Below, in pieces: positions 9,370 through 50,700 of a DNA stretch of 64,000 nt (positions are counted from its first letter, which is position 1; every line of letters begins with the position of its first letter). Both the position numbers and the translations under genes were made by a program. The DNA is from Carallia brachiata (lineage: Eukaryota; Streptophyta; Magnoliopsida; Malpighiales; Rhizophoraceae): NCBI GenBank assembly GCA_021464245.1, contig JADCRB010000007.1, positions 6,941,787-7,005,786 of the forward strand, read 5' to 3'. A model generated the notes under the pieces. It ran no database searches and had not been told where the DNA came from. It was given only the letters and a program-made list of their open reading frames with translations.

Positions 9370-12300
9370 GTGGTTTGGGTGTGAGTTTTGAACTTATACT
9401 CTTGATCGCTGGGTTCTCTCCTGAGCAGTCGTGTACCGTGAATTGCCTGTATCTGGGTACTAGGAGAGTTTTGTTGCAGCATTTTACAGCTTTTTGAATG
9501 GCTGGCTAGCCTGGCTTATAGTTTTGGAAGCTGGAATGAATAAATTCTTGAATATTATCTTTATTATGTATTTAGTGAACAAGTTGTTTGGACTGGGGCA
9601 ACACATTCAAATTAGACGAAAATTTTAAAATCAATTTTCTTGTATATTTTGAGTTTGTCATGTTAAGAGAAATTAGTCAAATTAAAATTTTCCTAAACGA
9701 TAATGTTAATATTTTGTTGTAGGTGGAACTCTCACCATATCATCATGTTGATGAGTTGGTGGGATCCTGGGATAATCGGACAAGCTGGTGGGATTAATTA
9801 TATAACAATTACTTTGTTTGCTTTTACTTCTTATTAAGGAATCGTCCAGAACAAAATATTTGTACTTTTAGCATATTTCACAATTTGTACATAGCAGTGA
9901 ATATGATAACTAACATGATATCTTCTTACGAGATGCTGAGACATTAAATAAAAGTCAACTCCGACCACAAAATATCATTGATATATGTAAGAAATGAAAA
10001 TTCTAAAGCTGTGTAACATTTTTATATGATGGGAATAAAAGGTTACCAAATCTCTCAATAGTAACGTTAATTGATGTAAGATTCATAACATATTATATAT
10101 AAATTAGGGATGAATCCACGCGAAAATTATTTTACATAATTTTAATTAATTTTGTTCAACATTTAGGACTTGAATTTCTTGTTTTTCAAAGTAAATATTT
10201 ATACTTTGAAGTTCAAGCAGTTGCACACTTTTCATTTGTAATTTTAGTTCATAAATAGTGGTCAAATGCAAAACAAGTCACAGCCAAATGTAATCCTACA
10301 GATCCAAATTTTAGATCTTAGTAAAAAACTACTGAGTCTTCACTCAATAAATTGAGTTAAAGATTTCTCTTGTTCTTTGGACTCCTGCAAGCATCATCGA
10401 TTTATGACGACAAACATCTGAAATTTTTTTTTTTTTGAAATATTGCTTGAACAATCTTGAAATTTCATATCGTAAATAAATTTTGTAAGTTAGTGCACAC
10501 GTAACTTTAATTGTTTTCAAGAAATAAACAAAGGAACAAGGTAGACAAACAAACACCAACAAAGAAACAATAAAAGAACAGAAGAAACTTTAGGAGCAAT
10601 TAAATTGGACCAACAAACCCTGTGAGAAGAAATTTAAGAACTAATCCTATAACGTGTCTAACTTTCTGTCTCCATTAATAATATAAGTAAGGATTTGAAC
10701 TGAACATCAATATGTTATGGTAATTTTACTCCAATTCCATGAGCTTTGCAAGGTTATGACTTATATTAGAACTAAATGCCAACGTATGATATATGAAATT
10801 ACTTTGGTATGGTGAGATACTTTTATTAGGCCCATTTTGAGATATTGAGATTCCTTTGGAACGTAGAAGCTTACGCAAACTACAATCTCAATTTAGCATC
10901 CAAAACCTCCAGTAACATTTAATTGAAGCATAGGCTTAACAAAACTCGAAAAACCATTGTCCATACTTGATTGAAGATTTTATGCTCTATCAATTGCACA
11001 TTACCTTACTTTATCAGAAGCATAGACCCTATTCAAAAGATTTCTTCATCAGAAACATGGACTCTTTGCCTATTTTTCATCATATAAACTCTCCATCAAT
11101 TTAAAAAGAACACCCCATCATATAGCCTAAATAAATGAAAATTAGAGATGGGGCGATAACTCACCAGAGAGGCTTTGAGGTTGAGAGCACTTGAAAGCTT
11201 TCTCAAATTATGCTTTTTCATCTTCAATTACAAAGAAACAGTCACCACCATCCTACTTTTATTAGTATATATATGAACTGAATGTTTGGCCTTTTATTGC
11301 GTGATTTATTTCTTACATTACTAATGACGGGAGGCTTGGAGAGGGTATGTTTACGTTACTAATAAGGACACCCTTAAATTGGAAAAATGCTATTAACTAG
11401 TACCTATAAATTAGGAGTAGTGTGCTATCAAAATATGGAAAACAATTATATGTAATAGATAGTAACATAATTATAATTATTAGCTGTAAATTCTTATTGT
11501 ATCTTTTAGAATTTAGGTTAATAAAAGTAATTTAGGAAAGAAAATTTGAAAAAATAAAAAAAATAAAGAATCTACCACTTGGTAACTACAAATAAAGAGA
11601 AATTTTCTCTAAACTTCCCTTTATACTAATTGAATAAATAATATTATATTTTGTATATATCTTAAATAAGTGAATATAACTGGAGCCACACAAAAAAAAA
11701 AAAAAAAAATTGTGACGTGGCCTAGACTTCACTTGTATCTTTCTCCTTTTTTTTTTTTTTTTTAATAATAGAAGTCAAAAGACTGATATAACATAGAATT
11801 ACTACGCATCATTCAGATCTTATGGATTCAAGTGAATATAGATTTATTTGTGCTATGAGCTGTCAAATCGAAATGGCTCCGAAATTAGTTTAAAAATGAA
11901 AGACAAGTTAGCTACCTTAATATTTCTTAAGAGAGAAAAAAAATAACTTTCATCAAAATCGCGACATTAATGTCAAAGTATTTATCTTCTCTAAAAAAAA
12001 AAATGTTAAACTATTTATCTTTTTTTTTTTTCAATTTTAAACAATGAAATAGTTTGCAATTAATTTGTCACCAGTTAACGAAAAGGGATTTGCAAATTTA
12101 TATAGACACTATATGTGGATTCAAAGATATTGCAAAAGAACAATCCCTCTAAAGAATTTTCACTTAATATGAGTATGTTCAGGACATTGGAATTTCAAAG
12201 TCACAAAAATTTTACACCAGCCGAACTAGCCCACCTGGGTAAGTATTTCTGTTCTTGAAAACCCGAAATTCGGACTTTTGTAATCGTTTCCACGATTCAT

Positions 12301-12985
12301 GAGCCGCTAAAGTGAGAAGAACATATAGGTCAACAAATGAATGAAAAGAGGTGTTTTGGCGTGTCTTGAGTGCCTACCTACACGACTTGGTCGGTATGTG
12401 CATCCAGTTTTGTTGCGTATCCCAATTTTTTGGAAGTGCAATTAATTTTTTTTTTAATTCAGCTCCAATAATAATTAAAATGCACGAAAACACAAACTTT
12501 AGCGGACCAAAATAACACCATACATATAATATAAGACCAAAAAAAACAAAGTCGCATATCTGTTGCCATGGTATACTTATTGCCACATTTTCGTGCAATT
12601 TGCGACAAGCCATCCCTATCCCATTCCCACTCAAAATAACTAAAAGAAACACTCGACATTCTAACTAACTCACCAATTCCTTTTCAGACCTAAGGAAAAT
12701 TCGGAATTTTTATTGACTTTATGCCCATAATTCACCTTATTTTGTTTGGATACAACTCATAAAGAAGTAGCTGTCAGTAATTAATCCAAAAATAATTACA
12801 TGAAAACCTTCAAATCAATGTATAAAATTCATAAAAGAGAAAACCTTTTCTTTTGAATATTTTGACGAACTTAAAAGAGAAAAAAGACAGGGAGAAACGT
12901 ATGAATGCAACTTTGATTTCATTAAAAGAAAAAACAAATGAATCTTAAAATAGCTATGCCAATCAAAAATTAACCAAAGAGAAAA
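9370..12985. other. Intergenic DNA, mostly unit A-specific
   Basis: About 9400-11945 has no counterpart in unit B, which holds a different 0.7-kb block there (47080-47800). About 12420-12985 is also missing from B. I see no gene, RNA or clear element. Homopolymers lie near 11690 and 11745. This could be ancestral DNA deleted from B or an insertion in A. Confidence 0.45.
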
Positions 12986-12990
12986 GTGCA

Positions 12991-14002
12991 TGTAAAGCGT
13001 AAATTTCGAGTCTAAAACAATTAAATTCGAAAATACAAAAATAAATTACAAATTAAAAATTGTAAAATAAAAGAAAATTTACGTGGAGTCGATCTCCGTA
13101 ACTCCTCCGATTAGTGTTCCTTTTTTGACTCCGTCAAGGGCTGCACGAGCTTGATCTTGACAGAAATAAATTCCACAATTTTTTCTTGAATTGGGTAGAC
13201 TGAAACCGGATCTGATTTGGACGTTTTAACTACGGTTAAGAACCGCAGAGACCTGATCTGAGCCGATCTGACTTAATTTCACCGAGGGTCGAAGGGACTT
13301 GTTTTCGGATGAGCTGCCTGAATTTTGCTGAGGGCCGTTTGAGGCTTAATCCCAGCTGGATTTGAAGTAATTTGATATTTTCATATTTATATTCTCAAAA
13401 ATTCAGATTTAGGGCGATCGGAAAATATAAATCTAAAAATAACTTTGGAAATGGAAATAGAAAATTTTTTGGGCCTTACCCCTGAAATATCTCTCAAAAA
13501 GGAGTTAGGAGAGTATACTGCAGAGTAAAAGTACGTAAGAAAATGAGAAATTTTCTTGAGAGATTTTTAAAATTTTCTTTTTCTCTCAAATTCTTTGGAT
13601 TTTTCTGTTTACAGATTTGCTGAATCTGTTTTGAACTGGGGGGCAGGAGCCTATTTATAAGGCTTTCTTTCGTTGTGGGAAATGGAATTTTAATTTGGGA
13701 CTTTGGAAATGTTTAAGAACGTGGATGTTGGTGTTTGATTGGCTAGGAGAATGTACTTGGCTTTTTCTTTGTAATTGAACGTTGGTTTTTTTTTTTTTTC
13801 TGGAATGCTTTTGCTCCAACTGCATCGGCCTATTTATAGGCCAGTAGATCCTCCTATTCCACCAACTCTCGCCAGCCAAATTGGAAAAATGCACAACGCC
13901 TGAAATGTGCATGCATCGTGGGTTTACTCTGACTCTTCAATAGGCCTTCTAGAGGCCTGACCATGACTTTTTCTTTTTTTTTTTTTTTAATAATACTTTA
14001 CA
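12991..14002 (-). repeat. 3' LTR of the Tat element
   Basis: 1012 bp, starting TGTAAAGCGTAAATTTC and ending AATAATACTTTACA on the plus strand. TATA-like CTATAAATAGG (minus strand) lies near 13828-13840, inside a GGCCTATTTATAGGCC near-palindrome, and another TTATAAATAGG near 13650. The Mutator-like and MITE insertions of the window do not interrupt it. Confidence 0.95.
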
Positions 14003-14018
14003 AATGTCCCCACTTCAA
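14003..14018 (-). promoter_or_regulatory. Polypurine tract next to the 3' LTR
   Basis: On the minus strand TTGAAGTGGGGACATT directly precedes the 3' LTR. The purine-rich core GAAGTGGGGA is at the expected place for plus-strand DNA priming. It is short and interrupted. Confidence 0.55.
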
Positions 14019-14976
14019 GGGTCGGTAAGGAAGAACTTTACAGACGTGATCCGCACCGAGTCTTGAAGTCCAGTTTGAAATTTGGAAACGTCCTAATGAA
14101 CATTGAATCTTGGAGTCTTCTATCTTTGAATATGTCTGCTGTTGTTGGATCGCAATAGGAATCTGATACGATCTTGAGAAAGTTAGCACCCCAGCCAATA
14201 TAAAAATTGATATTCTGGCTCCAGGTGCGTTCGAGCTTCCATAGCCCGCAAAGGATTTTTTATATGTCTTAAAGTTCCAGAGCTCTTGTGAGGATGATCC
14301 GGTAGGCAAAGAACTTGAACCTCCCCAAGAGGAAGGCCCAGCACTTCGGAACTTTAAGACCTGCGCACAGAGAGACGGGTTATGGTGATGATTCCCGAAT
14401 CTGCTTCGACGTAAGGAGAGTAGTTAGAACTTCCCTGCACGTCGCTGCATTTGTAGATCCAGGAGGACGATCAGAACTTCTCGGCTCGCTGCGATAGATG
14501 TGAACTAAGGAGAGTAGTTGGAACTCCATGACACCGATGGCGTTGGAGAATGAGTTTCGAGGGTTTCTAGGGATCCCTCGAGAAAGACTACTCCTTCTTT
14601 TCTTAGCTCGTGCGCCTCCAACTTCTTGATCAAAGAACTTCCTGAGACAAGTGCAGAGACTAGCCATTTTCTTTTGAGAAAGAAGAGCTGATGGGTGAGT
14701 ATTATAACTCGGGAATGCAAGATATATATACAAACGATAAAGGTTTTTTTTTTTTTTTTTGAAAAGTCAAAAAGAAGGTACGCAGAATCGAGTAGGATCC
14801 TCCACGTCCTTTTCCTGCATAAGAGACAAAAGAGGCAGCAGCTGACGCGTGTCACGAAAGTCGTTACCGTGTGTTGCAGAAGTCATTGCTGTGTGCTGCG
14901 GAAGTCGTTGCCGTGTGCTGCAGAAGTCGTTACCGTGTGCTGCCAAAGTCGTTGCACCTTATCTTGTCGGCCGTTT
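14003..14976 (-). other. Retrotransposon 3' noncoding region with a 22-bp tandem repeat
   Basis: Lies between the stop of the WOX-like frame and the 3' LTR. Near 14858-14956 there are about 4.4 copies of a 22-bp unit, AAGTCGTTACCGTGTGCTGC plus two bases, each slightly diverged. Minus-strand frames here (for example 14380-14733) resemble nothing I know. Confidence 0.6.
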
Positions 14977-15579
14977 CTAGCGGGGCCCAAGGCGCAGCTC
15001 CAAGTCAAGCTCGGCCTCGTCTGGTGGGCCGATGATGTTGACGTCGCTTTCCGGCTGGTTGATGCTGCCGGAATATTCTGAAAAAAGAGGCAAAATTTTG
15101 CTGGAATGACCCGTTTCTGCTAGAAAAAATCCTCCTAGACTTAAGTATCTAGGAGGGATGAACCCTTGGCTGACTCCGTAAGACCACCAGGACCAGCATG
15201 CATGCTCCCATGGGCTACGGCTTTGATGAACATACCGTGGAGAGACAATTGCAGTGGAAGAACTCGGACCTACTTCATTTGAGGGCGAAGCTGTACCAGT
15301 GGGATTTACTATCGGAACAACAGACTGTTCTTTGGAAGAAGAAGTTCTCAGTGCTGGTTTCTTCCTGCTTCTCCGATTCTGGAACCAATAAAACACATTT
15401 TTTCCTTCGATTGCCCCGAGCGGGCGCAATCGTGAGACAAGTTGGTAAATTTGAGGAACCAATAAAACACATTTGTGGAAGACTTCCTCCAAAATTTGCA
15501 GTTGTGTCATGGTCGGTTGCCACCTTGTGCGAGGTGATCTTTCTTCTCCCTTGTCTTGAGGTTCTGCTACTGGTTCCAT
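14977..15579 (-). CDS. WOX (WUSCHEL-related homeobox)-like reading frame carried inside the retrotransposon
   Basis: 200 residues, no introns, same strand as pol. The homeodomain starts near residue 18 (TRWQPTMTQLQILEEVF) and ends with the WOX signature IEGKNVFYWFQNRRSRKK near residues 76-93. Downstream are a WUS-box-like motif (ILPLFSEYS, about residue 161) and an EAR-like repression motif at the C-terminus (ELDLELRLG). This is the architecture of WUS-clade transcription factors. The start is preceded by AAG, a fair context. The segment between helices 1 and 2 is about two residues shorter than usual and is built from a copied 20-bp sequence, so DNA binding may be impaired. Introns normally found in WOX genes are absent, which suggests capture from an RNA copy (inference). 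It is open while neighbouring gag-pol is frameshifted. Whether it is expressed is unknown. Confidence 0.78.
   Translation of the reverse strand: MEPVAEPQDKGEERSPRTRWQPTMTQLQILEEVFHKCVLLVPQIYQLVSRLRPLGAIEGKNVFYWFQNRRSRKKPALRTSSSKEQSVVPIVNPTGTASPSNEVGPSSSTAIVSPRYVHQSRSPWEHACWSWWSYGVSQGFIPPRYLSLGGFFLAETGHSSKILPLFSEYSGSINQPESDVNIIGPPDEAELDLELRLGPR
15381..15474. repeat. 20-bp direct repeat inside the WOX-like homeodomain
   Basis: GGAACCAATAAAACACATTT occurs at 15381-15400, encoding the NVFYWF part of helix 3, and identically at 15455-15474, read in another frame in the helix 1-2 linker. Spacing is 74 bp. Confidence 0.85.
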
Positions 15580-16140
15580 CTTTCTTGTGGCAGAGGAGCA
15601 AAGGTCTTGGTATGTGGTGAAGATCGGTTGAGACTGATGCTGAGTTTCAGACTCAAACCCTCCGTCGTTTTTATATTTTTGGGCCGTTCACAGTTTATAC
15701 TCATGCGGGTCAGGAGTTGGATTGGATTTTGAACTTGGGTTCTGGACTGTGTCTGGGACTTGGAATTTTTGGGTTTTGGGTTTTGGATTGGATTTGGGTC
15801 GAGTGTTTGGGCTTCTAGACTTGGATTTTTGGATTTGGGTCGAGTGTTTGGGCTTCTAGACTTGAATTTTTGGATTTGGTTTTTAGGCTTTTGAGTTGGA
15901 CTCTGAATTGGGCTCAAGTGTTTGGGTTTGGATTTTCGCTTGGTCTTTCAGATCGGGACTTCGCAACTTTTTTTTTTTTTTTTTTTTTTTGATTTTTTTT
16001 TTTTTTTTTTTTTGATTTTTTTTTTTTTTTTTTTTTTAAACATATTTACACATAATACTGTTTCAGAAATTTACCATTGATTGGGCCGATTCGGACGCCT
16101 TCTTGGTCTGACAGCATGTAAGCGTTGTGAGTAGGCCTCC
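15580..16140 (-). other. Region between integrase and the WOX-like frame; tandem repeats and poly-T tracts
   Basis: Includes two 41-bp units starting GATTTGGGTCGAGTGTTTGG at 15791 and 15832, and long T runs broken by GA at about 15968-16037 on the plus strand (A-rich on the coding strand). A frame at 15567-15917 (minus) is a low-complexity Pro/Lys/Asn/Ser stretch and is not a convincing protein. This is presumably the leader of the WOX-like frame. Confidence 0.5.
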
Positions 16141-17081
16141 TGCACTAGTATGGCCCGTCCCATTTGGAAGTAAGCTTGTCACCAGGCCGATGCTTCATGT
16201 TGATGGGCCGTCGCACTGCAAGAACAAGTCTCCAACTTGAAAAGATCGAGGCGGACCCTGCGGTTGAACGTGTTGGTGAGCCGGGCTTGGTAGCACTCAA
16301 GTTGCTGTTGTGCTTCGAGCCTCCTTTCATCGAGGCTTCTAACTCATCCAGACGTAGGCGAGCATTCTCCTCCTGTGTGAGTCCTTCCAGAACAGCCATG
16401 CGCAGGGATGGAATCTGTGTTTCCAACGGCAGTATTGCTTCGACACCGTAGACAAGTGAGTATGGCGTCGCCTGTGTTGGAGTCCGGTAAGTTGTACGAT
16501 ACGCCCATAATGCCTCCGGAATTCTGTCATGCCAATCTCTTTTGGATTTAGAGACTACCTTCCGCAACAGGTTGCATAAGGTCTTGTTGAATGCTTCGGC
16601 CAAGCCATTTGCTGGGGCATTGTACATGGATGACTTGTACTGCTTGAACTTGAACTTCTCGCAGAGCTTGTCGATTAAGCTGTTGTAGAACTGCTTACCA
16701 TTATCAGTGATGATGAATCGAGGGACTCCATAGCGATAGATCAGCTGAGTCCGGATGAAATTGGCAACATGCTCCTTCTTTACCTCTCTAAGTGGAATGG
16801 CTTCAGCCCATTTTGAGAAGTAGTCGGTTGCTGCGAGGATGTACAGGTGACCCAGGGATGACTTTGGCAAGGGCCCCACTAAGTCGAGACCCCAAGCTTC
16901 AAAGGGCCAGGATGAGACAGTTGGATGCAGTGGCTCCGGTGGTTGATGTATGTAATTCGCATGAAATTGACAAGCTTGACAGTTTTAGCAAACTCAATGA
17001 ATCACGTACCATGGTTGGCCAGTAGTATCCCATCCTTCTGAGTTGGAAGTGCAACTTAGGCCCGATTGATGTCCGCCACAA
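16141..17081 (-). pseudogene. Integrase (Tat-lineage gypsy), frameshifted
   Basis: Integrates element DNA into the host genome. The core (16145-16879) has the D,D35E triad: Asp in ATDYFSKW, Asp in TDNGKQF, Glu in NGLAEAFNK exactly 35 residues after the second Asp. The zinc-finger side (16899-17081) starts with RRMGYYWPTMVRDS and then loses frame, missing the usual Cys pair. Near the C-terminus the frame slips after DELEAS and recovers at LVLAVRRP, followed by HRPGDKLTSKWDGPY. Frame changes make this pseudogenic. Confidence 0.9.
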
Positions 17082-18370
17082 ACACCAGAATGTGCTTCAG
17101 AGAGCTGTTTTGCCTCTTCATTGCTAGGCAGCGAAGTAAAACTCCATCAAAAGACCTTCGATACAGAGCATCCTTGAGATATATGAAGCGGGGAGCTCGT
17201 CGTTGAATTTCTGTCTTATGACGACGATCTTCGGGCAGCTTCCCGTGCTGTAGGTAGTCAATGATTGGTTGGCGCCAATCCTCGTCCTCCGCGAGACGTA
17301 TAGATACAGCGTTGGCTGCTGTAGTTTCTTCATCATCCTTCTGTGGCACTATCCATTTCTGGCATACGGCAACAACTGTAGCCTGGATTTCTGACTTTGC
17401 AAGAGAGGTGGCCAGGTTAGCCAACGCGTCTGCCTGAGTGTTTTCTCGTCGAGGCACATGCTCCAAGGTGATGCTTTCAAATTCATCCATTAGCTGTCGA
17501 GCACGTTGATGGTAAGGTGCAAGGTCCTCTTTCTTCACGTCATACAATCCTGTAAGTTGGTTGATGACGAGCTGGGAATCTCCATGGACTTCTATAGTTG
17601 GAATCTTCATATCGACAGCCATTTGAAGACCAATGATCAAAGCCTGGTATTCAGCAACATTATTTGAACATAACTCACCGAGAATGATAGCATATGGTAG
17701 TATTTGTCGTTGAGGAGTGACAAACACTATGCCGGCACCAGCACCATCACGCCTTGCTGCACCATCAAAGAACATCGTCCATGGTGGTAGTGTCTCAATG
17801 TAAAAGACCTCTTCATCTGGAAGATCATCTGTGAACTCCCAATCTGACGGAACAGGGTGATCTGCAAGGAAGTCTGCTAGAGCTTGTCCTTTGACTGCTT
17901 TTTGAGGCACGTAGACAATGTCGTAGCTTTGTAGGATTACTGCCCACTTGGCAAGTCGTCCTGACAAGATTGGTCTGGATAAGATATATTTGACAGGATC
18001 AGCTCTGGCAATGAGACGTACCGTGTGAGCTTGCATGTAGTGCCTCAGCTTGTCAATGGCAAAGAACAGTGCTAGACATGTCTTTTCAATGGGCGAATAA
18101 CTCAGCTCCGGACCGTTTAGTGTTCTGCTCAAGTAGTACAGGGCAACTTCCTTTCCCTGCTCGTTTTCCTGTGCAAGCAAGGCTCCCAAAGATCTTTCCT
18201 GCGCTGCAATGTAGAGAATCAACGACTTTCCTTGAATTGGAGCACCTAGGACCGGTGGATTGGAAAGGTACTTCTTTATGCTCTCAAAGGCTTTGCTGCA
18301 AGCTTCGTCCCACTCGAAGTTGACATCCTTCTTCATCAACCGATGGAAAGGTTGACATCTCCCAGCTAAA
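17082..18370 (-). pseudogene. RNase H and second (archaeal-type) RNase H domain of pol
   Basis: The open part is in the frame 17056-18531. It begins with the RT-linked RNase H region (FEWDEACSKAFESIKKYL, then YYLSRTLNGPE and LRHYMQAHTV). A linker follows, then a distinct RNase H fold with WTMFFDGAARRDGAGAGIVF, CSNNVAEYQALIIGL and VHGDSQLVINQL. Its acidic residues are Asp in FFDGA, Glu in AEYQA and Asp in HGDSQ. A dual RNase H is characteristic of Tat elements. The junction with reverse transcriptase near 18370 is frameshifted. Confidence 0.88.
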
Positions 18371-19143
18371 TTGGAGAAAACGGCGAATGTAGGCCAGCTT
18401 TCCTTGTAGACTTCGCAGCTCGTGCAGGTTTTTAGGTTCAGGCATCTTTTGAATTGCCTCAACCTTTGACTGATCAACTTCGATTCCACGATGGCGCACC
18501 ACGAACCCAAGAAACTTTCCTGATGTGACACCGAATGCGCACTTGAGAGGGTTCATTTTGAGCTGATGCCTCCGAAGTCTTTCGAACACTGTCTTGAGAT
18601 CCTCGAGGTGGTCTTTGCGCTTCTTAGTCTTTACAACTAAGTCATCAACATAACATTCTACAATCTTGTGCAGCATGTCATCAAAAATTTTTTGCATAGC
18701 ACGTTGATAAGTGGCGCCAGCATTTTTCAATCCAAACGGCATAACTTTGTAGCAGTATATACCTTTTGGGGTGCGGAATGCTGTCAACTCCTCGTCTTCT
18801 GGTGCCATTCTGATTTGGTTATAGCCTGAAGAACCATCCATGAAGGACAATGCTTCGTGACCCGTTGTTGCATCGACTGTGATCTCCGTTATGGGCAATG
18901 GAAAGTCATCTTTCGGGCAGGCCTGTTAAGATCTCGAAAATCAACACATACCCTCAACTGTCCATTCTTCTTTCTTACCGGGACAATGTTGGCAATCCAC
19001 GTTGGGTAGGTGACCTCTCGGATGAAGCCAGCATTGATCAGCTTGTTCACCTCCTCCTCGATTTGTGGAATGAGTTCCGGGCGGAACCGTCGTTGTGGCT
19101 GCTTGACAGAACGAACACCCTTCTTTACTGCTAGACGATGCAC
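18371..19143 (-). pseudogene. Reverse transcriptase of pol, frameshifted
   Basis: Upstream part (18889-19143): PELIPQIEEEVNKLINAGFI, PTWIANIVPVRKKNG and CVDFRDLNR. A base is missing at about 18920-18930, after which the frame changes to LPITEI-type sequence. Downstream part (18371-18898): MDGSSGYNQIRM, RTPKGIYCYKVMPFGLKNAG, catalytic YVDD at 18641-18652, and the thumb-like KFLGFVVRHRGIE. All main motifs survive, but the reading frame is broken at both ends. Confidence 0.92.
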
Positions 19144-19149
19144 CGCAAT

Positions 19150-20240
19150 TTTGGGTCAAGTCCAGGCATTTCTTTGTAACTCCATGCGAACACGTCCCTG
19201 TATTGACTTAATACCTGAACATATTCTTGCTCTCTTCTGCAGTAAGTAAAGCACTTACAAATGTAGGTCGAGGATCTTCCGGAGAGCCAAGATTGACCTC
19301 CTTGAGTTCATCAACAGTTGCTTGGCCACCATCTTCAAGTTCCGGGGGAGCCTCCTTCACTTCACCATCTGATGAGTCGGACTCAGCCTCCTCGCTAATT
19401 GTGACATGAAATGCAGCCTCTGACTTCACCTTCTTTGTTTGACTGGATAAGCCTGTCTTGTTTGGTGGTGGTGGTGGTGATGGCACGTGCATCAGCTGCT
19501 CGGCTTCGGCTCTTTAGCGTGATCCGCACAGGTGACTTCTCCTGATAGCCTAAGCCAGGTCGGGACTGTGATGTTTGAGAAGGCGCCATGTGTGGACGGC
19601 AGCGTACCCATTGTGCTCGGGTTTGAGAAGTCATAGCCCGCCTTTGCCAAAAGCTTGTATGCATTAGGATCAAATCCTTCATGTGTTCTTCTTTCTGGAA
19701 GTGAGCCGCCTTCGACTGCCCCCGTGTGTGGTTTGACGAAGCCTTTTAATGGTTTTGAAGAAACCGGCTCAATCTTTGGTATCGGCAGAGTGTAAGTCTC
19801 CTTCAGGTTGTGCAGCTCCTTTGTTTTGGGTTGGCTATGACCTTGCTCCTGTTTAAGATCAATACAATAAGAGAAAGGGGGTTGACCTTCTGAGCGTCGT
19901 GACTTCGGCACATAGCGTAGGACTGGAGTGGAGCTTGAAGATGCAACATCCTTCGGACGGAGTTCAGCAGGCTGTGGCAGCTTTTCATTTGTTGGAGCCT
20001 GGGTTGGCATTGGCAGGTTCTTCGACAGCTTTTCCCTTTTTGTGGATGCCCCCAGTCCAAGTAGCTTTTGATGGAATGATCTCCGGATTGTCTGTGTGTG
20101 TAGAAGACTGCATCCGCCAAATGTGATTCAGCATCATCGAACGGCTTTAAGTCAGCATTGACCTTTTGAACGCCACCATTGTAGTACTTGAAGCACTGAT
20201 GCAGGCTTGAGAGCACAACTCCATTTCCATGAATCCACGG
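19150..20240 (-). pseudogene. Protease-RT linker region of gag-pol
   Basis: Frames at 19208-19492 and 19492-20010 carry a hydrophilic acidic linker (PELEDGGQATVDELKEVNLG, then EDPRPTFVSALL) of the kind found between protease and reverse transcriptase in Tat-type pol. Several frame changes; no catalytic motif. Confidence 0.65.
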
Positions 20241-20490
20241 TCGTCCTAGCAACATCTATATGTGGTACGTGCATCAATCACGTGAAATAGAGTGCTAGAA
20301 GTGAGATTACCGATAGTTAGCTCCAAGCGAATCATCCCAATTGCTTTCTGTCCTCCTTGATTAAAGCCATGAATCATCAAGCGGCTGTCTGATAATTCAT
20401 CAACCGATGCCGAGCTCCTTTATGGTGGATTTTGGGATAATATTGACTGCTGAGCCATCGTCGATCAGAATACGTCGGACCTTCTGTTCT
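20100..20490 (-). pseudogene. Aspartic protease of the retrotransposon
   Basis: The minus strand reads VRRILIDDGSAVNIIPKS with the catalytic DDGS codons at 20451-20462, then a stop. In another frame (19803-20255) the C-terminal part continues with MLLGRPWIHGNGVV and SLHQCFKYYNGGVQKVNADL. The motif identifies a retroviral-type aspartic protease; the frame is disrupted between the two parts. Confidence 0.85.
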
Positions 20491-20792
20491 CACATAGCCT
20501 GATACATACAGCGGCCGATTGTGGGGTTTGGACCCCAGCAGGAGATCCTCATCTGAAAATGAGATAGCAGAGTAACATCCGACGTGATTTTGGCCGCCTG
20601 TTGCTCCGTGAGTTGGAATCTTGATGGCAGAGGTTCAGCTGAGGTCTGAGAGTATTGCGACTTGATTTTGCCACACTTCTGTTGTTTGCAAAGCTGTAAA
20701 CAGCTGAGGGTTAGCGAGAAGGGTTTGGAGAGCTTCATATACCTTCTCCGTTGTCGACTTTTTGTTGTCGAGCGGCTCCTCCTTACGGTGTG

Positions 20793-22494
20793 TCACTCTT
20801 CTGATGGTTTTGAAGTGATGGTGGTCTGGTTTGCCGAGGTTATGCCTTCCTGGTCCAGAATGATTTTATTCTGGCTTTTGAGCTTCATGATTAGCTCCTT
20901 CAGGACGAAACACTTCTCGGTTGGATGACTTACTATCCGATATTTGCAGAATCTCGGATCGCTGACTCGATCCTTTTCATTCGGCCGCTTGCACTCTGGG
21001 AGTTCGATCAGCTTCGCCTCCAAGAGTTGTCAGAATGTCGGGACGTCTGAGTCGGGGAATGGATACTGCTTCTGCTCCAACTCTCGCAATGTCACCTTCC
21101 GCCTTTCCTGTTGTTTTGGCTGAGTTATTTGGGTCGGAGGATTTACCTTAGCTTTGGCGCCCACTTTTACTGGTGCGGCTTCAACAGTCATCACTTCTTT
21201 TCCTTTTCCGGAGCTGTTGGGTTTCTTAATCTCCCTTCTGCCCCCTTGCTGGTCCAACTGGATGGGAACCGTGCCTCCGGAAGTCTGGATGCTTATCTCC
21301 ATATCATGTGCGCGGGTCGCCAGTTCTTCGAAGTTCGGGGTTTGACACCCTGCAGGATGTATAACAGCTCCCAATGCATTCCCTGGATGCACATCTCACG
21401 GCAGAAGTCTCCGTCAGGCGATCTTTGCAGTCCAAGCTGAGGGCACGCCATCTGTTGATGTATTCGACAACGGGCTCTCCTTTCCTTTGTTTGGTGCTGG
21501 TAAGCTCCATCATACTTACCGTCCTTCGAGTGCTGAAAAATCTGTTGAGGAACTCTCGTTGTAGCTGTTCCCAACTGTCGATCGATTCTGGTTCAAGATT
21601 TATGAACCAGGTGAAAGCGGTCTCCCTGAGTGAACGAACAAACTGCTTCACCAAGAGATCTCCATAAGTCCCTGCGTTGTTGCAGGTTTCAACGAAGTGG
21701 GCGATGTGCTGTTTGGGATCGCCTCGTCCGTCGAATTGTTGAAATTTGGGCGGCTGGTAGCCCAAGGGCATGTTGAGACTTTCGATCCGTCTGGTGTACG
21801 GTTTGACGTACATCTGTGATCCTTGGAAGGATGTAGCTTGTTGTCGGATCGTATTGGCTATCATTTCCTGCAATTGTTGAACAGATAGCGAAGCTACAGA
21901 ATTTGAGGGTGGCAGCTGTGTAGAACTACCTGGTCGCTTTTCTGCAGGGAAGACGTCGGCTGGTGTGGCTTCTGGAGTGAAACCGGGTGGATATGGTTGC
22001 TCCTCGCGGATTCGGGATCAACTTGGATCGGGGCTTTCCTTTGAGAGCGGCGATCTGTTGATCTTTTTCCTCCACGACTCTGATCAGCTGCAAAATTTTG
22101 TTCTCCAATTCTGAAATTCTTTCCTCTACTGGTTGTGTTGGTCATCATGACGGCAACAGATGAGGCTCCGGGAAAGACTGGGGGAGAAACTCTTCTGATT
22201 CTTCTGTGTGAGTTGGATTTGTTGAGCAGGCTTCGTCGTGTTGCCCCCGACTTCGATCGGGGTGGGTGATCGACTCCTCCATGCGGCAAGAGAGTCAGGG
22301 GAGAGATCCTGTTGTGCGAGCTGTGGACTCTCCATTTCGAATTTTTGGGTTTGGACGGCAAGAAATTGTGTCCGTCCCCGGGTTTCTGGACCTGCGTACC
22401 CAGGTAGGGTAGTTGATGCAGGCAATGGAGCCGTTGCCTTCTTTTTTGTGGCAGCAGTTGTACTCTTTTCGGTGCCATTTGATGTGCTGAACAC
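20793..22494 (-). pseudogene. gag of the retrotransposon, multiply frameshifted
   Basis: N-terminal part 22126-22494, Ser/Thr/Pro-rich. The capsid-like region is 21304-21873, with PPKFQQFDGRGDPKQHIAHF, AFTWFINLEPESIDSWEQL and FLNRFFSTRRTVSMMEL, matching the plant retrotransposon gag domain. The sequence then shifts through two further frames (21293-21574, 21030-21392), and the last part (20793-21023) has a Cys/His motif in FCKYRIVSHPTEKCFVLKE. At least three frameshifts. Confidence 0.88.
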
Positions 22495-22648
22495 CTGTAA
22501 AATTTTTTTTTTTTTACTTTTTTTACTTTTTACTTTTTTTACTTTTTACTTTTTATTTTTTTTACTTTTTTTTTACTTTTTTTTTCTCTCGGCTCCCCTT
22601 TTACCTCTTTTTTTTTTTTTTAAGGAATAAGAGATGGAAGGTGAAGAT
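22495..22648 (-). other. Retrotransposon 5' leader, homopurine/homopyrimidine
   Basis: Plus strand has repeated TTTTACTTTTT blocks (22501-22620), so the element's leader is A/G-rich between the primer-binding site and gag. Confidence 0.6.
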
Positions 22649-22666
22649 GTCCCACCGAGCGTGCCA
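22649..22666 (-). promoter_or_regulatory. tRNA primer-binding site
   Basis: On the minus strand TGGCACGCTCGGTGGGAC starts 6 nt after the 5' LTR. It begins TGG, complementary to the tRNA CCA end, so the plus strand shows a tRNA-like 3' end ending GTGCCA. I did not identify which tRNA it matches. Confidence 0.75.
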
Positions 22667-22672
22667 AAAATT

Positions 22673-23687
22673 TGTAAAGCGTAAATTTCGAGTCTAAAAC
22701 AATTAAATTCGAAAATACAAAAATAAATTACAAATTAAAAATTGTAAAATAAAAGAAAATTTATGTGGGGTCGATCGCCGTAGATCCTCCGATTGGTGTT
22801 CCTTTTTTGACTCCGTCAAGGGCTGCACGAGCTTGATCTTGACAGAAATAAATTCCACAACTTTTTCTTGAACTGGGTAGACTGAAACCGGATCTGATTT
22901 GGACGTTTTAACTACGGTTAAGAACCGCAGAGACCTGATCTGAGCCGATCTGACTTAATTTCACCGAGGGTCGAAGGGACTTGTTTTCGGATGAGCTGCC
23001 TGGATTTTGCTGAGGGCCGTTTGAGGCTTAATCCCAACTGGATTTGAAGTAATTTGATATTTTCATATTTATATTCTCATAAATTCAGATCTATGGCAAT
23101 CGGAAAATATAAATCTAAAAATAACTTTGGAAATGGAAACAGCAAATTTTTTGGGCTTTACCCCTGAAATATCTCTCAAAAAGGAGTTAGGAGAGTATAC
23201 TGCAGAGTAAAAGTACGTAAGAAAATGAGAAATTTTCTTGAGAGATTTTTAAAATTTTCTTTTTCTCTCAAATTCTCTGGATTTTTCTGTTTACAGATTT
23301 GCTGAATCTGTTTTGAACTGGGGGGTAGGAGCCTATTTATAAGGCTTTCTTTCGTCGTGGGAAATGAAATTTTAATTTGGGACTTTGGAAATGTTTAAGA
23401 ACGTGGATGCTGGTGTTTGATTGGCTAGGAGAATGTACTTGGCTTTTTCTTTGTAATTGGACGTTGGTTTTTTTTTTCTTTTCTGGAATGCTTTTGCTCC
23501 AACTACATCGGCCTATTTATAGGCCAGTAGATCTTCCTATTCCACCAATTCTCGTCAGCCAAATTGGAAAAATGTACAACGCCTGAAATGTGCATGCATC
23601 GTGGGTTTACTCTGACTCTTCAATAGGCCTTCTAGAGGCTTGACCATGACTTTTTCTTTTTTTTTTTTTTTTTAATAATACTTTACA
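22673..23687 (-). repeat. 5' LTR of the Tat element (promoter LTR)
   Basis: 1015 bp, about 97% identical by hand count to the other LTR. Same TATA-like sequences. Right edge CTTTACA is followed by the GTGCA target duplication. Confidence 0.95.
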
Positions 23688-23692
23688 GTGCA

Positions 23693-25720
23693 TTGTTTGA
23701 GAAAATTAAGTTTCTAGTTTTAGACTACTGTAATAAACTTTTAATCCATTGAATTGACGAAACATGTGTCACCAATAATTTTCCCTTGCAAATATCAAAA
23801 TCATTTTCAGAATGGGGTGACTGAATTGGAGTTTGGACTCCGATATAAACAATAAAAATAAAAATAAAAACTAAAATAGGCATCAAATCTTATACTTTGT
23901 TGTATCCCAGTTTATTTATTTATTTTTTTAATTTCTGTTCGACAAGAAGGGCAAAATACAACCAAAGAAACAATTAAATTGAACGACTGTTGTGTGCTCC
24001 TGTGCATATTAAATCTCTTTATTTGTTTCTTTCTGTCGATACATGGTAGCCCCCTCTTCCCCACCCCCCCCCCCCCCCCCCGGGGCCTCTTTTTTTCTCT
24101 CTAACGGCGAACTCACTAATAGGCATTAAACAGTTGCACTTAGGGGGAGAAACACATGAACATCTTTCTTGGCATCCAATCATTGGTTTTTTTTTTTAAT
24201 TAATTTTCCACCGCATAAACAATTAAACATTTTCCGCAGCTAATTGCGACTTTTTTGTTGGTAAATCAGATTTAAACTCAATATTAAAAGGCCAAAAATA
24301 CATAGAGGAATCCAGCTGATGAAGCATTATCACAGCCGAAGAAATTATTAATTTGCCATAGAAATCTGGACCATTATTATACTAAATAATGACCATGAAC
24401 AATGGCAGTTTGTTCGATCGCTGTTGGAGGAAATTAGCGATGTTGTTAATTTGCAATTATGCGTTGGTATATTTATAGTTCCTGGAATTTCGTACAACGT
24501 ACGGTTCCAATAGTTCTTTCCCAGGCCGATCCAAACGTGCTGATTTAAAGTGGCTTTGCAAATTCATGCTGCTATTTGCATTTTATTCTCAACAACGAAC
24601 GTAGTAGATGATATTATCTGAACCCTTATCCCCGCTAAGAGTCTATATTAGGAGGATACCATATGTTTTATTAAATTATTATAAGCATAGTTAGGGGCGA
24701 CCTTGGTACGACTTCCTGTTCAATTAAATTTGGATTTTAGTTTTGAATCTAGTTTGATTTTTTTTTTTTTTTTGGTTTTTTTTTTCAACACTATGGGTTT
24801 TGATATTACTTTTTTCTTTTTAATTTTTTTGGAACCCGCTAATTTGTTTGTTCTTATCGGTCCAACTCTTTTGTCGATCCCGATCCCAAAAATATACAAA
24901 TCCTAACCGACCTACATTTTCTCTAGCTACGGTTCTAGTTGGAATCAGGCCTCAGTTGGTTCCGGTTCTAGTTTGAGCCGGGTCCACGACAGAGGTCACC
25001 CTAAACATGGTCAAGGTGCTCTCTTAACCTTTGAAAATCTTAGAAAAATCGATTGCTAGCTCATTGACATCGTTTATGGCTCGGACCAGCGGCCGAAGTA
25101 AACAAGAAATCTGTTGCTAATACAGATATACATTCATCAAGAGTGAAAGATAAGAAAGTTAATGAAAATAAGATCATTAACTTGAAAACAGTAATTTTAG
25201 GATATCTATAAAAAATTTGGTGGATTACCATTAATTGGGGGAGATGTAAATGAAGAAGGTATATTTTGATGTTGAGATGTCCATATGGAATTCGAGGTGA
25301 GTTGGTTTCCCAGATGAGGCAATCCTCGTCCAGGTCCCCACAAGTCGTGGCTCCATTAATTTTAGCTTATCATTCTCGAAGGCTGCCCGTCAAGCCAAGT
25401 GCAATGTACATTTACTTGACAAGTGGCAAATGGAAGTCTTTTGAGTTTTGGCAATGGAAATAAAGGCACTTTGGAGTCGAGTCAATGTGCGTCTTCAAAG
25501 ACGTCCCAAAAACCATTGTACAAGAAGCACGCGGCGCACATGTTGGTTACTGTTCTCCTAGGTGTTTTTTCTCCGGTAATTCCGTATGGTATAGGAAATT
25601 TGTATCTTTCCATCGAAAAAGGTTCACGTAAGTTGCTTTTTCTGACATGTTGACTGTTGTGCCTTTATTCTGGTATCAAAATTTATGCCTTTCGAGTCGT
25701 GAACTGTACCGAACTATCAT

Positions 25721-47795: not shown

Positions 47796-50700
47796 AATAA
47801 CTTTCATCCAAATCACAACATCTATGTCAAAGTATTTATGTTTTTTTTTTCTTTTTAAATATTGAAATAATTTATAGGTACTCAATCAACAATTAACAAC
47901 AATTAACAGAAACAAAATTCGTGAGCTTACAGACACTACTGGCATATTCGAAAAAACTACTGGGGGACAGTCTCTCTAAAATTTCGACTTAATGTGAGTA
48001 CATTCAACAAGTTGAGATCCCAAAACTACAAAAATTTTGTATCAGCCGAGCTAGCCCAGCTGGGTAAAAATTTATGTTCTTGAAAACTCGAATTTCGGAA
48101 TTCTGTATCGTTTCCACGATTCATGAAGCCGCTAAAGTCAGAAGAATATATAAGTCAACAAAAGAATGAAAAGTGGTGTTATGGCGTGCCATGAGTACCT
48201 GCCTGCACGATTTGGTTGGTATGTGCATCCAATTTTGTTGCATATCCCGTTGAAAAGGTCCCGACCCGACAACCTGACCTGAAAGAGAAGACTTCATTGT
48301 TAGAGAAAATTAAGTTTCTAGTTCTAGACTACTGTAATAAACTTTTAATCCATTGAATTGACGAAATTTGTGTCACCAATAAAATTTTCCTTACTAATAT
48401 TAAAATCATATTCAGAAGTAAGAATCTCGAGTGGAGTTTGGATTCTGTTATTAAAAGAAAATTAAAGTAGCCGTCAAATTTTGTACTTTGTCGTAACGGG
48501 ATTTGACATACACAGGAGAACACAACAGTCGTTTAATTTAAGGTGTATTTGTTTATTGTAAAATATTTTACGGGAAAAAATTTTATAGGTTTTCTGGCGT
48601 TTTTTTTACAGAAAATATTTTACATAAGTAAAATTAAGGAAAATTTTTTAGATTTTCAGGTAAAATAACTTCTCTTTTTGCAGAGCTGAAGTTATTTTCA
48701 GGAAAAATACAAATTGTACTATAAGTAAGTGACAAAGGAAAATCATTATTTTCACTACAAATATTTTCTCCTGCAAATATTTTACAAATGTAAGTTATTT
48801 TATAGCAAACAAACGGACCCTTAATTATTTCTCATTACTCAAAAAAAATTAATTGTTTCTTTGGTTGTATTTTGCCCTTCTTGTCAAATAGATATAAAAA
48901 TAAAAAAAATAAAAAAAAAATCGAAACATGGTAAGCCCCACATTTTTTTTTTCTGTAAAGGGGAACTCCATGCAGGCATTATTCAGTTGCACTAGGGGAA
49001 GAGACACATTAACTTCTTTCTTGATCTCTAACCATTTGCTTTTTTTTTTTGAGTTAATTTTCTCCGCATTAACATTTTCCGCAGCTAATTGCGACTTTTT
49101 TGTTCGTAAATCAGATTTAAATTCAATAGAGGAATACATAGACATGAGCAATGACATAGAGGAATCCAGCTGATTACAACATTATATTAATTAATGACCA
49201 TGAGCAATGGCAGTTTGTTCGACCGCTGTTGGAGGAAATTAGCGATGTTGTTAATTTGCAATTATGCTGTGGTATATTTGTAGTTCCTGGAAGTAAACCG
49301 TATAGCTCCAGTAATTCTTTTTTGTGAGGGAGGATTTATCAAAATTCACATTAGACCATAATTTATACAATGGAGATCTCTTCCCTTTTATAAATCTTAC
49401 TCCTCTATGCCACTTTAAACATGCTGATTAACTCTAGGCTTTGTGAATTCATGATGTTATTTGCATTTGACTAAGACACGTTTTATACTCAACAACGTGC
49501 GTATTAGATGATATAATCTGAACCCTTATCCCAGCTAAGAGTCTATAATAGGAAAATAAACTACATATATTTTTTTGAATTATTAGAGGCATGTCCAGGG
49601 GTGACCCTGGTACAACTCCCTCTTCGGTTAAGGTTCGTTTCTGGTTCCGAATCTGATCTGGTCCTTATTTTCTCAGTTTTTTCGCCGTCATGAGTTTAAT
49701 TTTAATTTTTTAAAAAAAATTCCTTTGTTCTTGTCAGTCCAACTATTTTGCCGACTCAGATCCCAAAAATACACAAATCGTAACTGGACCGTACGTTTTC
49801 TCTTGTTAATCGGGGCCCCAGTTGGTTCCGATTCTAGTTTGAGCCTGGTCCATAACCGAGGCCACCCTAAGCATAGTTAAGGTGCTCTCCGCTCTTAACC
49901 TTTGCAAATCTTAGAAAATTCGATTGCTAGCTCGCTGACATCGTTTATGTCTCGGACCAGGGGCTGAAGTAAACAAGAAATCTGTTGCTAATATAGATAT
50001 ACATTCATAAAATTGTTCAGAAGAGAACAACGTGGGGCTGCAAGACAACTAGGACAAACGCTTTGGATAAGAACTTTATAAATGCATGCTATATGATCGT
50101 GCTTTATCCCACTAGATGGGATAAGCCGACGGTGCAAATATATAGAGCACTGAACCAGGCTCGTGACCCGTAAAAGAAGGCGAAACTATAGTGTCAGGTG
50201 GATTTGGTACGAGGAATCCGAAGTTTAAGTCAGTAGAGTGTAAAAGGGTAAAGAATAAGAAAGTTAATGAAAATGAAGATATTAACTGGAAAATAGTATT
50301 CTTAGGGTATTTATAAAAATTTGCTGGATTCTCATTAATTGGAGAAGATATAATTGAAGAAGGTATGTGGCCTTATGGAATTCGGGGTGAGTTGGTTTCC
50401 CGGATGAGGCAATCCTCGACCAGGTCCCCGTATGTCTTGGCTTCTGAACCTTAATCTAAAGGTGTTGGACGCCCACTTATTCTTATCATTGTACATTACC
50501 AATCACAATTTTAAGCATTAATTTTTGCTTATCATTCTCGAAGGCTGCCCGTCAAGTCAAGTGCAATGTACATTCACTTGACAAGTGGCACATGGAAAAT
50601 GTTGCCTAGAATATTAAAAAGGTCCTATTAGGTGACAAAACATTAGTCATCATATAATATTTATACATGACTTAATTTTATTAATTTTATAATGAAAAGT

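Follow-up and report, generated by a model that had tools for sequence, protein, structure and literature searches.

Extra open reading frames are common in plant LTR retrotransposons, and their origin and use are mostly unknown. The nearest precedent for the element described here is a group of Ogre-like elements of the orchid Phalaenopsis that carry an AlkB m6A demethylase; as described in the text of PMC9289625, these too belong to the Tat family, have dual RNase H domains, and carry in many copies a host-like gene that is fixed in one lineage. The Retand elements with Transposase_28 are Tat elements too, and a frame for a putative DNA-binding protein lies between their pol and 3' LTR; by the account in the text of PMC11963269 this frame is present in 97% of recently active Retand clusters. 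Host-type regulatory domains also occur in other Gypsy elements, namely Ogre with a plant mobile domain, Citrus elements with a YgdH domain of the type of LONELY GUY, which acts on cytokinin, and Aegilops elements with a B3 domain; in the text of PMC6317226 and PMC9289625, supplements aside, no homeobox or WUS domain is named for these elements. Tat elements in which a host gene has become fixed as an additional frame are already known.

Here we describe a window of 64,000 nucleotides from Carallia brachiata in which a Tat element carries a 200-codon frame with a WOX homeodomain, most likely derived from WUSCHEL (WUS). While the orchid elements encode an RNA enzyme active in vitro (PMC9289625, main text), the Carallia frame would encode a putative DNA-binding stem-cell regulator; and whereas the Transposase_28 frame is given in the text of PMC11963269 as antisense and of unknown origin, the Carallia frame is sense and has a traceable host origin. 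With WUSCHEL (T3WOX) factors, as characterized in the parts of PMC7203112 and PMC6788696 consulted, the frame family shares the WUS-length loop, WUS box, EAR motif, and base-reading residues, but it is multi-copy, intron-free, located in an LTR element, and ends its homeodomain in NVFYWFQNR instead of NVFYWFQNH. In the literature searched, supplements aside, no LTR element was reported to carry a WOX or homeobox frame: the main texts of PMC11963269, PMC9289625, and PMC3726574 mention neither homeobox nor WUS, and that of PMC6317226 does not mention homeobox. The survey in PMC6317226 applied, according to its text, a minimum of 250 codons, which a frame of this length would escape. Nor did this literature yield a WUS-derived regulator under selection in an element.

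The element spans positions 12991-23687, and all its coding parts lie on the minus strand in the order gag, reverse transcriptase, RNase H, second RNase H, integrase, WOX frame, and 3' LTR (Table 1). Its LTRs are identical at 983 of 1015 alignment columns, and a 5-bp target duplication, GTGCA, flanks it. A second RNase H (aRH) between RNase H and integrase marks the Ogre/Retand elements of angiosperms, as stated in the text of PMC6317226; with an aRH in this position, an LTR pair, a target duplication, integrase, and reverse transcriptase, the element belongs to the Tat clade of Ty3/gypsy and is Ogre/Retand-like. Pfam scans of the frames that lie between pol and the LTR of this element detected no Transposase_28; in the genome as a whole, 2 of 27 candidates match it.

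Table 1. Features of the Carallia brachiata window, by position
Feature	Position	Strand	Basis and remarks
3' LTR	12991..14002	minus	pair alignment; TG...CA ends
Candidate polypurine tract AAGTGGGGACATT	14003..14015	minus	adjoins 3' LTR; by eye
Short tandem array, 22-nt spacing	14834..14955	minus	repeat search; downstream of WOX frame
Extra frame, most likely WUSCHEL-derived, 200 codons	14977..15579	minus	sense; between pol and 3' LTR
EAR-like LDLELRL, residues 191-197	14989..15009	minus	motif reading and shuffles
WUS-box-like LPLF, residues 163-166	15082..15093	minus	motif reading and shuffles
WOX homeodomain, residues 17-74	15358..15531	minus	Pfam, WUS HMM, three-helix model
20-nt stretch in helix 3, source of internal duplicate	15381..15400	minus	exact repeat
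Second copy of 20-nt stretch, replacing helix 1-2 loop	15455..15474	minus	exact repeat; window copy only
Integrase	16145..16879	minus	PF00665, E 1.1e-9
RNase H, then second RNase H (RVT_3)	17056..18531	minus	PF17917, residues 102-203; PF13456, residues 255-374; upstream of integrase
Reverse transcriptase	18284..18898	minus	PF00078, E 3.9e-31
Gag	21304..21873	minus	PF03732, E 4.6e-13
Candidate primer binding site TGGCACGCTCGGTGGGACA	22648..22666	minus	sequence reading
5' LTR	22673..23687	minus	pair alignment
Paralogous site without element	48248..48295	unstranded	flank matches; junction by eye

Positions 1-35000 and 36400-61000 of the window form a tandem segmental duplication whose pieces are 76-95% alike, with the element in the first copy only; a lipase gene (galactolipase DONGLE-like), with best matches of 66-67% in Salix, Hevea, and Erythroxylum, is duplicated as well. 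The flanks of the element match the second copy at an empty site (12140-12423 to 47967-48248, and 23691-23812 to 48295-48417), although about 570 bp of left flank adjoining the element have no long match there. This empty site near 48.25-48.30 kb indicates that the insertion probably postdates the segmental duplication.

The WOX frame, which begins in the context AAAGATGG, lies inside the LTRs on the same strand as gag-pol, as the sequence-only reading had stated. Its residues 17-74 match the homeobox family PF00046 with an E value of 2.7e-11, and the closest solved structures in the PDB are those of WUSCHEL (6ry3, E 3e-14) and STENOFOLIA (6wig, E 4e-13). Profile HMMs of T3WOX proteins give the window homeodomain 57.2 (WUS) and 49.8 bits, versus 38.2 and 39.8 bits for the T1/T2 profiles (WOX11- and WOX13-type). 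An alignment-guided model contains three helices, with block means of pLDDT of 84-94 over residues 21-70 and low values elsewhere, and its best structural matches are the WUS and STENOFOLIA homeodomains; such a model can mirror its own alignment, so that folding of the window copy is a prediction only. Downstream of the homeodomain follow LPLF and then LDLELRL, the order of WUS box and EAR motif, and when the C-terminal 122 residues were shuffled 20000 times, LPLF followed by LxLxL never arose. The three parts and their order, which had been read from the letters, are thereby borne out, and a chance frame is rejected by the Pfam and PDB homeodomain matches and by the shuffles. A 41-nt direct repeat lies at window positions 15788-15869, in the leader 5' of the frame, near a tract that is long and A-rich on the element strand.

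A search of the same genome for other copies with the insert, as proposed earlier, found them in abundance. All 150 scored candidates (of 2262) match the frame at 82-100% identity, and 108 of these 150, counted by eye, have no internal stop. Integrase was used as a second probe (3100 candidates, 150 scored), and each of the best 30 loci, window included, has a WOX match 544-964 nt downstream; some of these matches are partial or just 50-55% identical, and frame-less relatives may exist among the integrase loci ranked below the best 30. Around 19 frame-centred loci (window included), integrase was found upstream in 15 and an LTR downstream within about 1.5 kb in 12. An intron-free frame in a single element whose LTRs are 97% alike could have suggested that the window copy recently took up a host WOX mRNA in a single event; this is refuted by the recurrence of the frame at the best 30 integrase loci and in the 150 scored copies, host WUS is moreover distant on the tree (see below), and we assign the idea a negligible probability. 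One identical score is common to 23 of the 150 scored rows, identical 621-nt frames occur at separate sites in 4 of 10 copies compared, and at least five listed copies (matched by eye) have both a WOX frame free of stops and, around integrase, an open frame of at least 950 aa. The identical frames, common score, and intact pairs indicate that the family spread recently with the frame aboard.

Among the copies compared, single-base deletions outnumber insertions by 61 to 11, an excess that suggests residual assembly error in some copies, by which gag-pol frameshifts may be inflated too. In loci L073, L078, L090, L091, and L098, small indels are about equal to or above substitutions, and these are probable uncorrected assembly errors; frameshift counts in repeats of the Carallia brachiata genome therefore need care. 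Divergence is also mosaic: in two sets of loci (L070-L098 and L002-L068) integrase DNA is at a median 99.3-99.7% alike, while the WOX frame is 94% alike in the integrase-chosen set. The contrast points to recombination among element RNAs or to a recent sweep of the pol side, and is enlarged by the choice of copies by integrase. Loci L070 and L083 represent a diverged subfamily with the loop FYNDGGIVPNSTQI, which is nearer to the WUS loop than that of the main family. Outside Carallia, no copy of the frame was found: no relatives emerged from viral contigs, for which the proteins of the frame, integrase, and RNase H served as queries, or from genome contigs, queried with the frame, and in a protein search with the frame 12 of 184 candidates were host-type WOX proteins, with 37-46% identity over 26-43% of the frame.

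The same genome contains, labelled by resemblance, two WUS, two WOX1, one WOX2, one WOX3, two WOX4, and one WOX5 genes. In a homeodomain tree, ten element frames form one clade (support 100/100), whose stem branch measures 2.56 changes per column, and fall on the WUS/WOX1-7 (T3WOX) side of a split supported at 94/92, with a polytomy at the WUS grouping. The phylogeny that the sequence-only reading had proposed favours a place of the frames among T3WOX genes, but the AU test rejects none of six placements (WUS, p 0.34; WOX1, 0.43; WOX3, 0.60; WOX5, 0.33; WOX11, 0.25; WOX13, 0.21), so that the source is not named by the tree alone. Among the reference sequences, WUS of Cladopus (Podostemaceae) is the one with which the host WUS-like genes L049 and L050 group (82/82).

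Other characters point to WUS. The text of PMC7203112 describes as specific to WUS one additional residue where helix 1 ends (Y54); the homeodomain segment has 66 residues in ten element frames and five WUS proteins, and 65 in host WOX1-5. This WUS-length loop is present in 46 of 47 other copies and destroyed in the window copy. LPLF is kept in 43 of the 47, ETLPLFP in 28, and an EAR-like end in 42. By the clade criteria for WOX proteins set out in the text of PMC6788696 (WUS box, EAR, and NVFYWFQNH or NVFYWFQNR), one character differs: NVFYWFQNH, the T3WOX signature, is absent from the window copy and all other copies read for it, and the homeodomain ends in NVFYWFQNR, there given as the intermediate-clade signature, in the window copy and most others, with a different last letter in a few. 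In the host WUS locus L049, 1323 nt separate the start of the homeodomain motif from that of the WUS box, and the frame of the homeodomain meets stops on the way; the element frame has no such 1.3-kb gap and reads through, which fits a spliced mRNA as source. Because of the WUS-length loop, WUS box, EAR motif, and frame continuity, a spliced host WUS mRNA is, as judged from sequence comparison, the most likely source.

A run of 17 A (element strand), located some 216 nt past the stop codon, could recall a host retrogene of LINE type that became nested in the element after its insertion. The position of the frame is, however, common to the copies, and no target duplication longer than chance surrounds it, which refutes such nesting; we give it next to no credence. 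Of the capture of a host WOX mRNA by a Tat element, as first proposed, descent from WOX and movement with the element hold, but the capture is old and common to the sampled family, not specific to the window copy. The frame might also have been a common random product of its repeat family without relation to host WOX genes; it is indeed common in that family, but its kinship with WOX is clear.

We estimated dN/dS across copies, as had likewise been suggested. In 44 distinct copies without the window, the ratio is 0.43 (0.30-0.65) for the whole frame and 0.22 (0.11-0.47) for the homeodomain; the similarity-ranked set behind these numbers comprises 48 of the 150 listed copies, window included, 7 of them with stops, and ranking by the window protein lowers dN. 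The 29 copies chosen by integrase, from which L069 (the window copy again) was left out, give a less biased estimate of 0.38 (0.22-0.60) for the homeodomain and 0.54 (0.38-0.79) for the whole frame. Alignment by tblastn of partly frameshifted copies inflates dN (homeodomain 0.56, integrase 0.58), and position-based codons were used instead; loci L058-L068 were picked by similarity to AtWUS. In the 44-copy set, the homeodomain ratio is 0.17 for distant and 0.73 for close pairs, the pattern expected if insertions decay while masters stay constrained. As a control, the homeodomain of 20 ungapped open copies read in frames 0, +1, and +2 gave 0.21, 0.81, and 1.50. The homeodomain is under purifying selection. 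Its constraint looks weaker than that on integrase, for which the ratio is 0.25 (0.15-0.42) in 13 of 18 frame-chosen loci; pooled values in frame-consistent subsets are 0.33-0.40 for the homeodomain, 0.50-0.57 for the whole frame, and 0.51-0.54 for integrase. The middle third of the frame is near neutral (0.69-0.77), and the intervals of the middle third and the C-terminus extend beyond 1 in the main samples.

These numbers bear on whether the frame is a passenger that hitchhikes with a successful founder, its apparent constraint being a remnant of its past as a host gene or a product of the choice of copies. Such hitchhiking would fit the nearly free evolution of the middle third and the damage to most copies, since 24 of the 29 integrase-chosen copies are not frame-complete (5 are complete by nucleotide alignment and 3 by a stricter open-frame test). 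The homeodomain ratio is nevertheless below 1 among copies within the genome, also in the integrase-chosen ones (0.22-0.60), and the control frames lack such a signal. In addition, neutral drift to the present homeodomain identity, simulated from the STENOFOLIA homeodomain, predicts about 11 stop hits per 600 nt, a figure that alone cannot separate host from element history. We regard a mere passenger as unlikely.

The window copy itself is a damaged member of the family. Residues 36-42 of its frame are the 20-nt helix-3 duplicate read in another frame, and among 100 loci compared the 20-mer is present twice only in L001 and L069, both of which are the window copy. Since the loop is overwritten here and normal in 46 of 47 other copies (the exception, L032, is frameshifted at the loop), the damage belongs to this copy. 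Outside the duplicated patch, it keeps 14 of 15 columns common to all WOX groups and 17 of 37 other columns (Fisher, 0.0013). That the frame is intact beside a frameshifted gag-pol had seemed notable, a view that does not stand: from the LTR divergence, 603 bp would stay open with a chance of 0.37-0.68, with 4-10 disabling hits expected in the roughly 6.3 kb of gag-pol. Openness of the window frame is therefore uninformative on selection since insertion, and we rejected it as a sign of such selection.

Taken jointly, we consider it fairly probable, and the best explanation, that a Tat family copied a host mRNA and kept the frame as a sense accessory gene. A Tat-type Ty3/gypsy family would once have copied a spliced host mRNA, most likely of WUS, and the captured cDNA would have been placed in the gap between integrase and 3' LTR and carried there since. 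By analogy with WUS, the protein would enter the nucleus and bind TGAA/TAAT-type DNA through the conserved contacts, with TGAATGAA and TTAATGG as candidate sites for the family homeodomain, while its WUS-box and EAR motifs would recruit co-repressors of the TOPLESS type. According to the text of PMC7203112, R38, Q89, N90, and R94 are base-reading residues of WUS, and K82, N83, and Y86 form its phosphate cluster. The window copy keeps all of these as well as W39 (mapped by eye), and the same eight residues are kept in 43 of 47 other copies, as found with a pattern that fixes their spacing. Mapping by eye further places R17 at the position of S36 and T79 at that of F101 in the window copy; in the work reported in PMC7203112, as its text has it, S36R raised binding of WUS to TAAT about six-fold, and F101 is important for WUS dimers.

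The retained base-reading residues, together with R17 and T79 at these two positions, would also suit a protein that acts mainly against the host, as an LTR-driven dominant interferer that would rival WUS for its target sites. A frame that did nothing but harm the host would not be maintained, however, and we think this role quite improbable. The putative nuclear WUS-like repressor would instead serve the element, most likely through changes in host-cell transcription that affect meristem state or silencing, and benefit through host-cell state is our leading idea. The LTRs were not found to be enriched in known WUS motifs, so benefit through known WUS sites in the element's own LTRs is unlikely, and self-activation through these motifs was rejected. 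More speculatively, and with doubts that outweigh our confidence, the element family may carry its own stem-cell regulator, comparable to the growth regulators of some retroviruses. Expressed as a WUS-derived repressor, it would keep the host cell, or cells next to it, in the state of the shoot stem cells from which the plant germ line is fed, and selection would retain it since it makes new insertions heritable.

For Carallia brachiata, surveys of WOX genes could miscount transposon copies as WOX genes. For extra frames in LTR elements at large, the Carallia frame offers a case with a traceable origin, presence throughout the sampled copies, and measurable selection. The captured gene, on its most likely origin, goes back to a master regulator of the cells that give rise to the plant germ line, and with such a descent it becomes directly testable why host genes are retained by elements.
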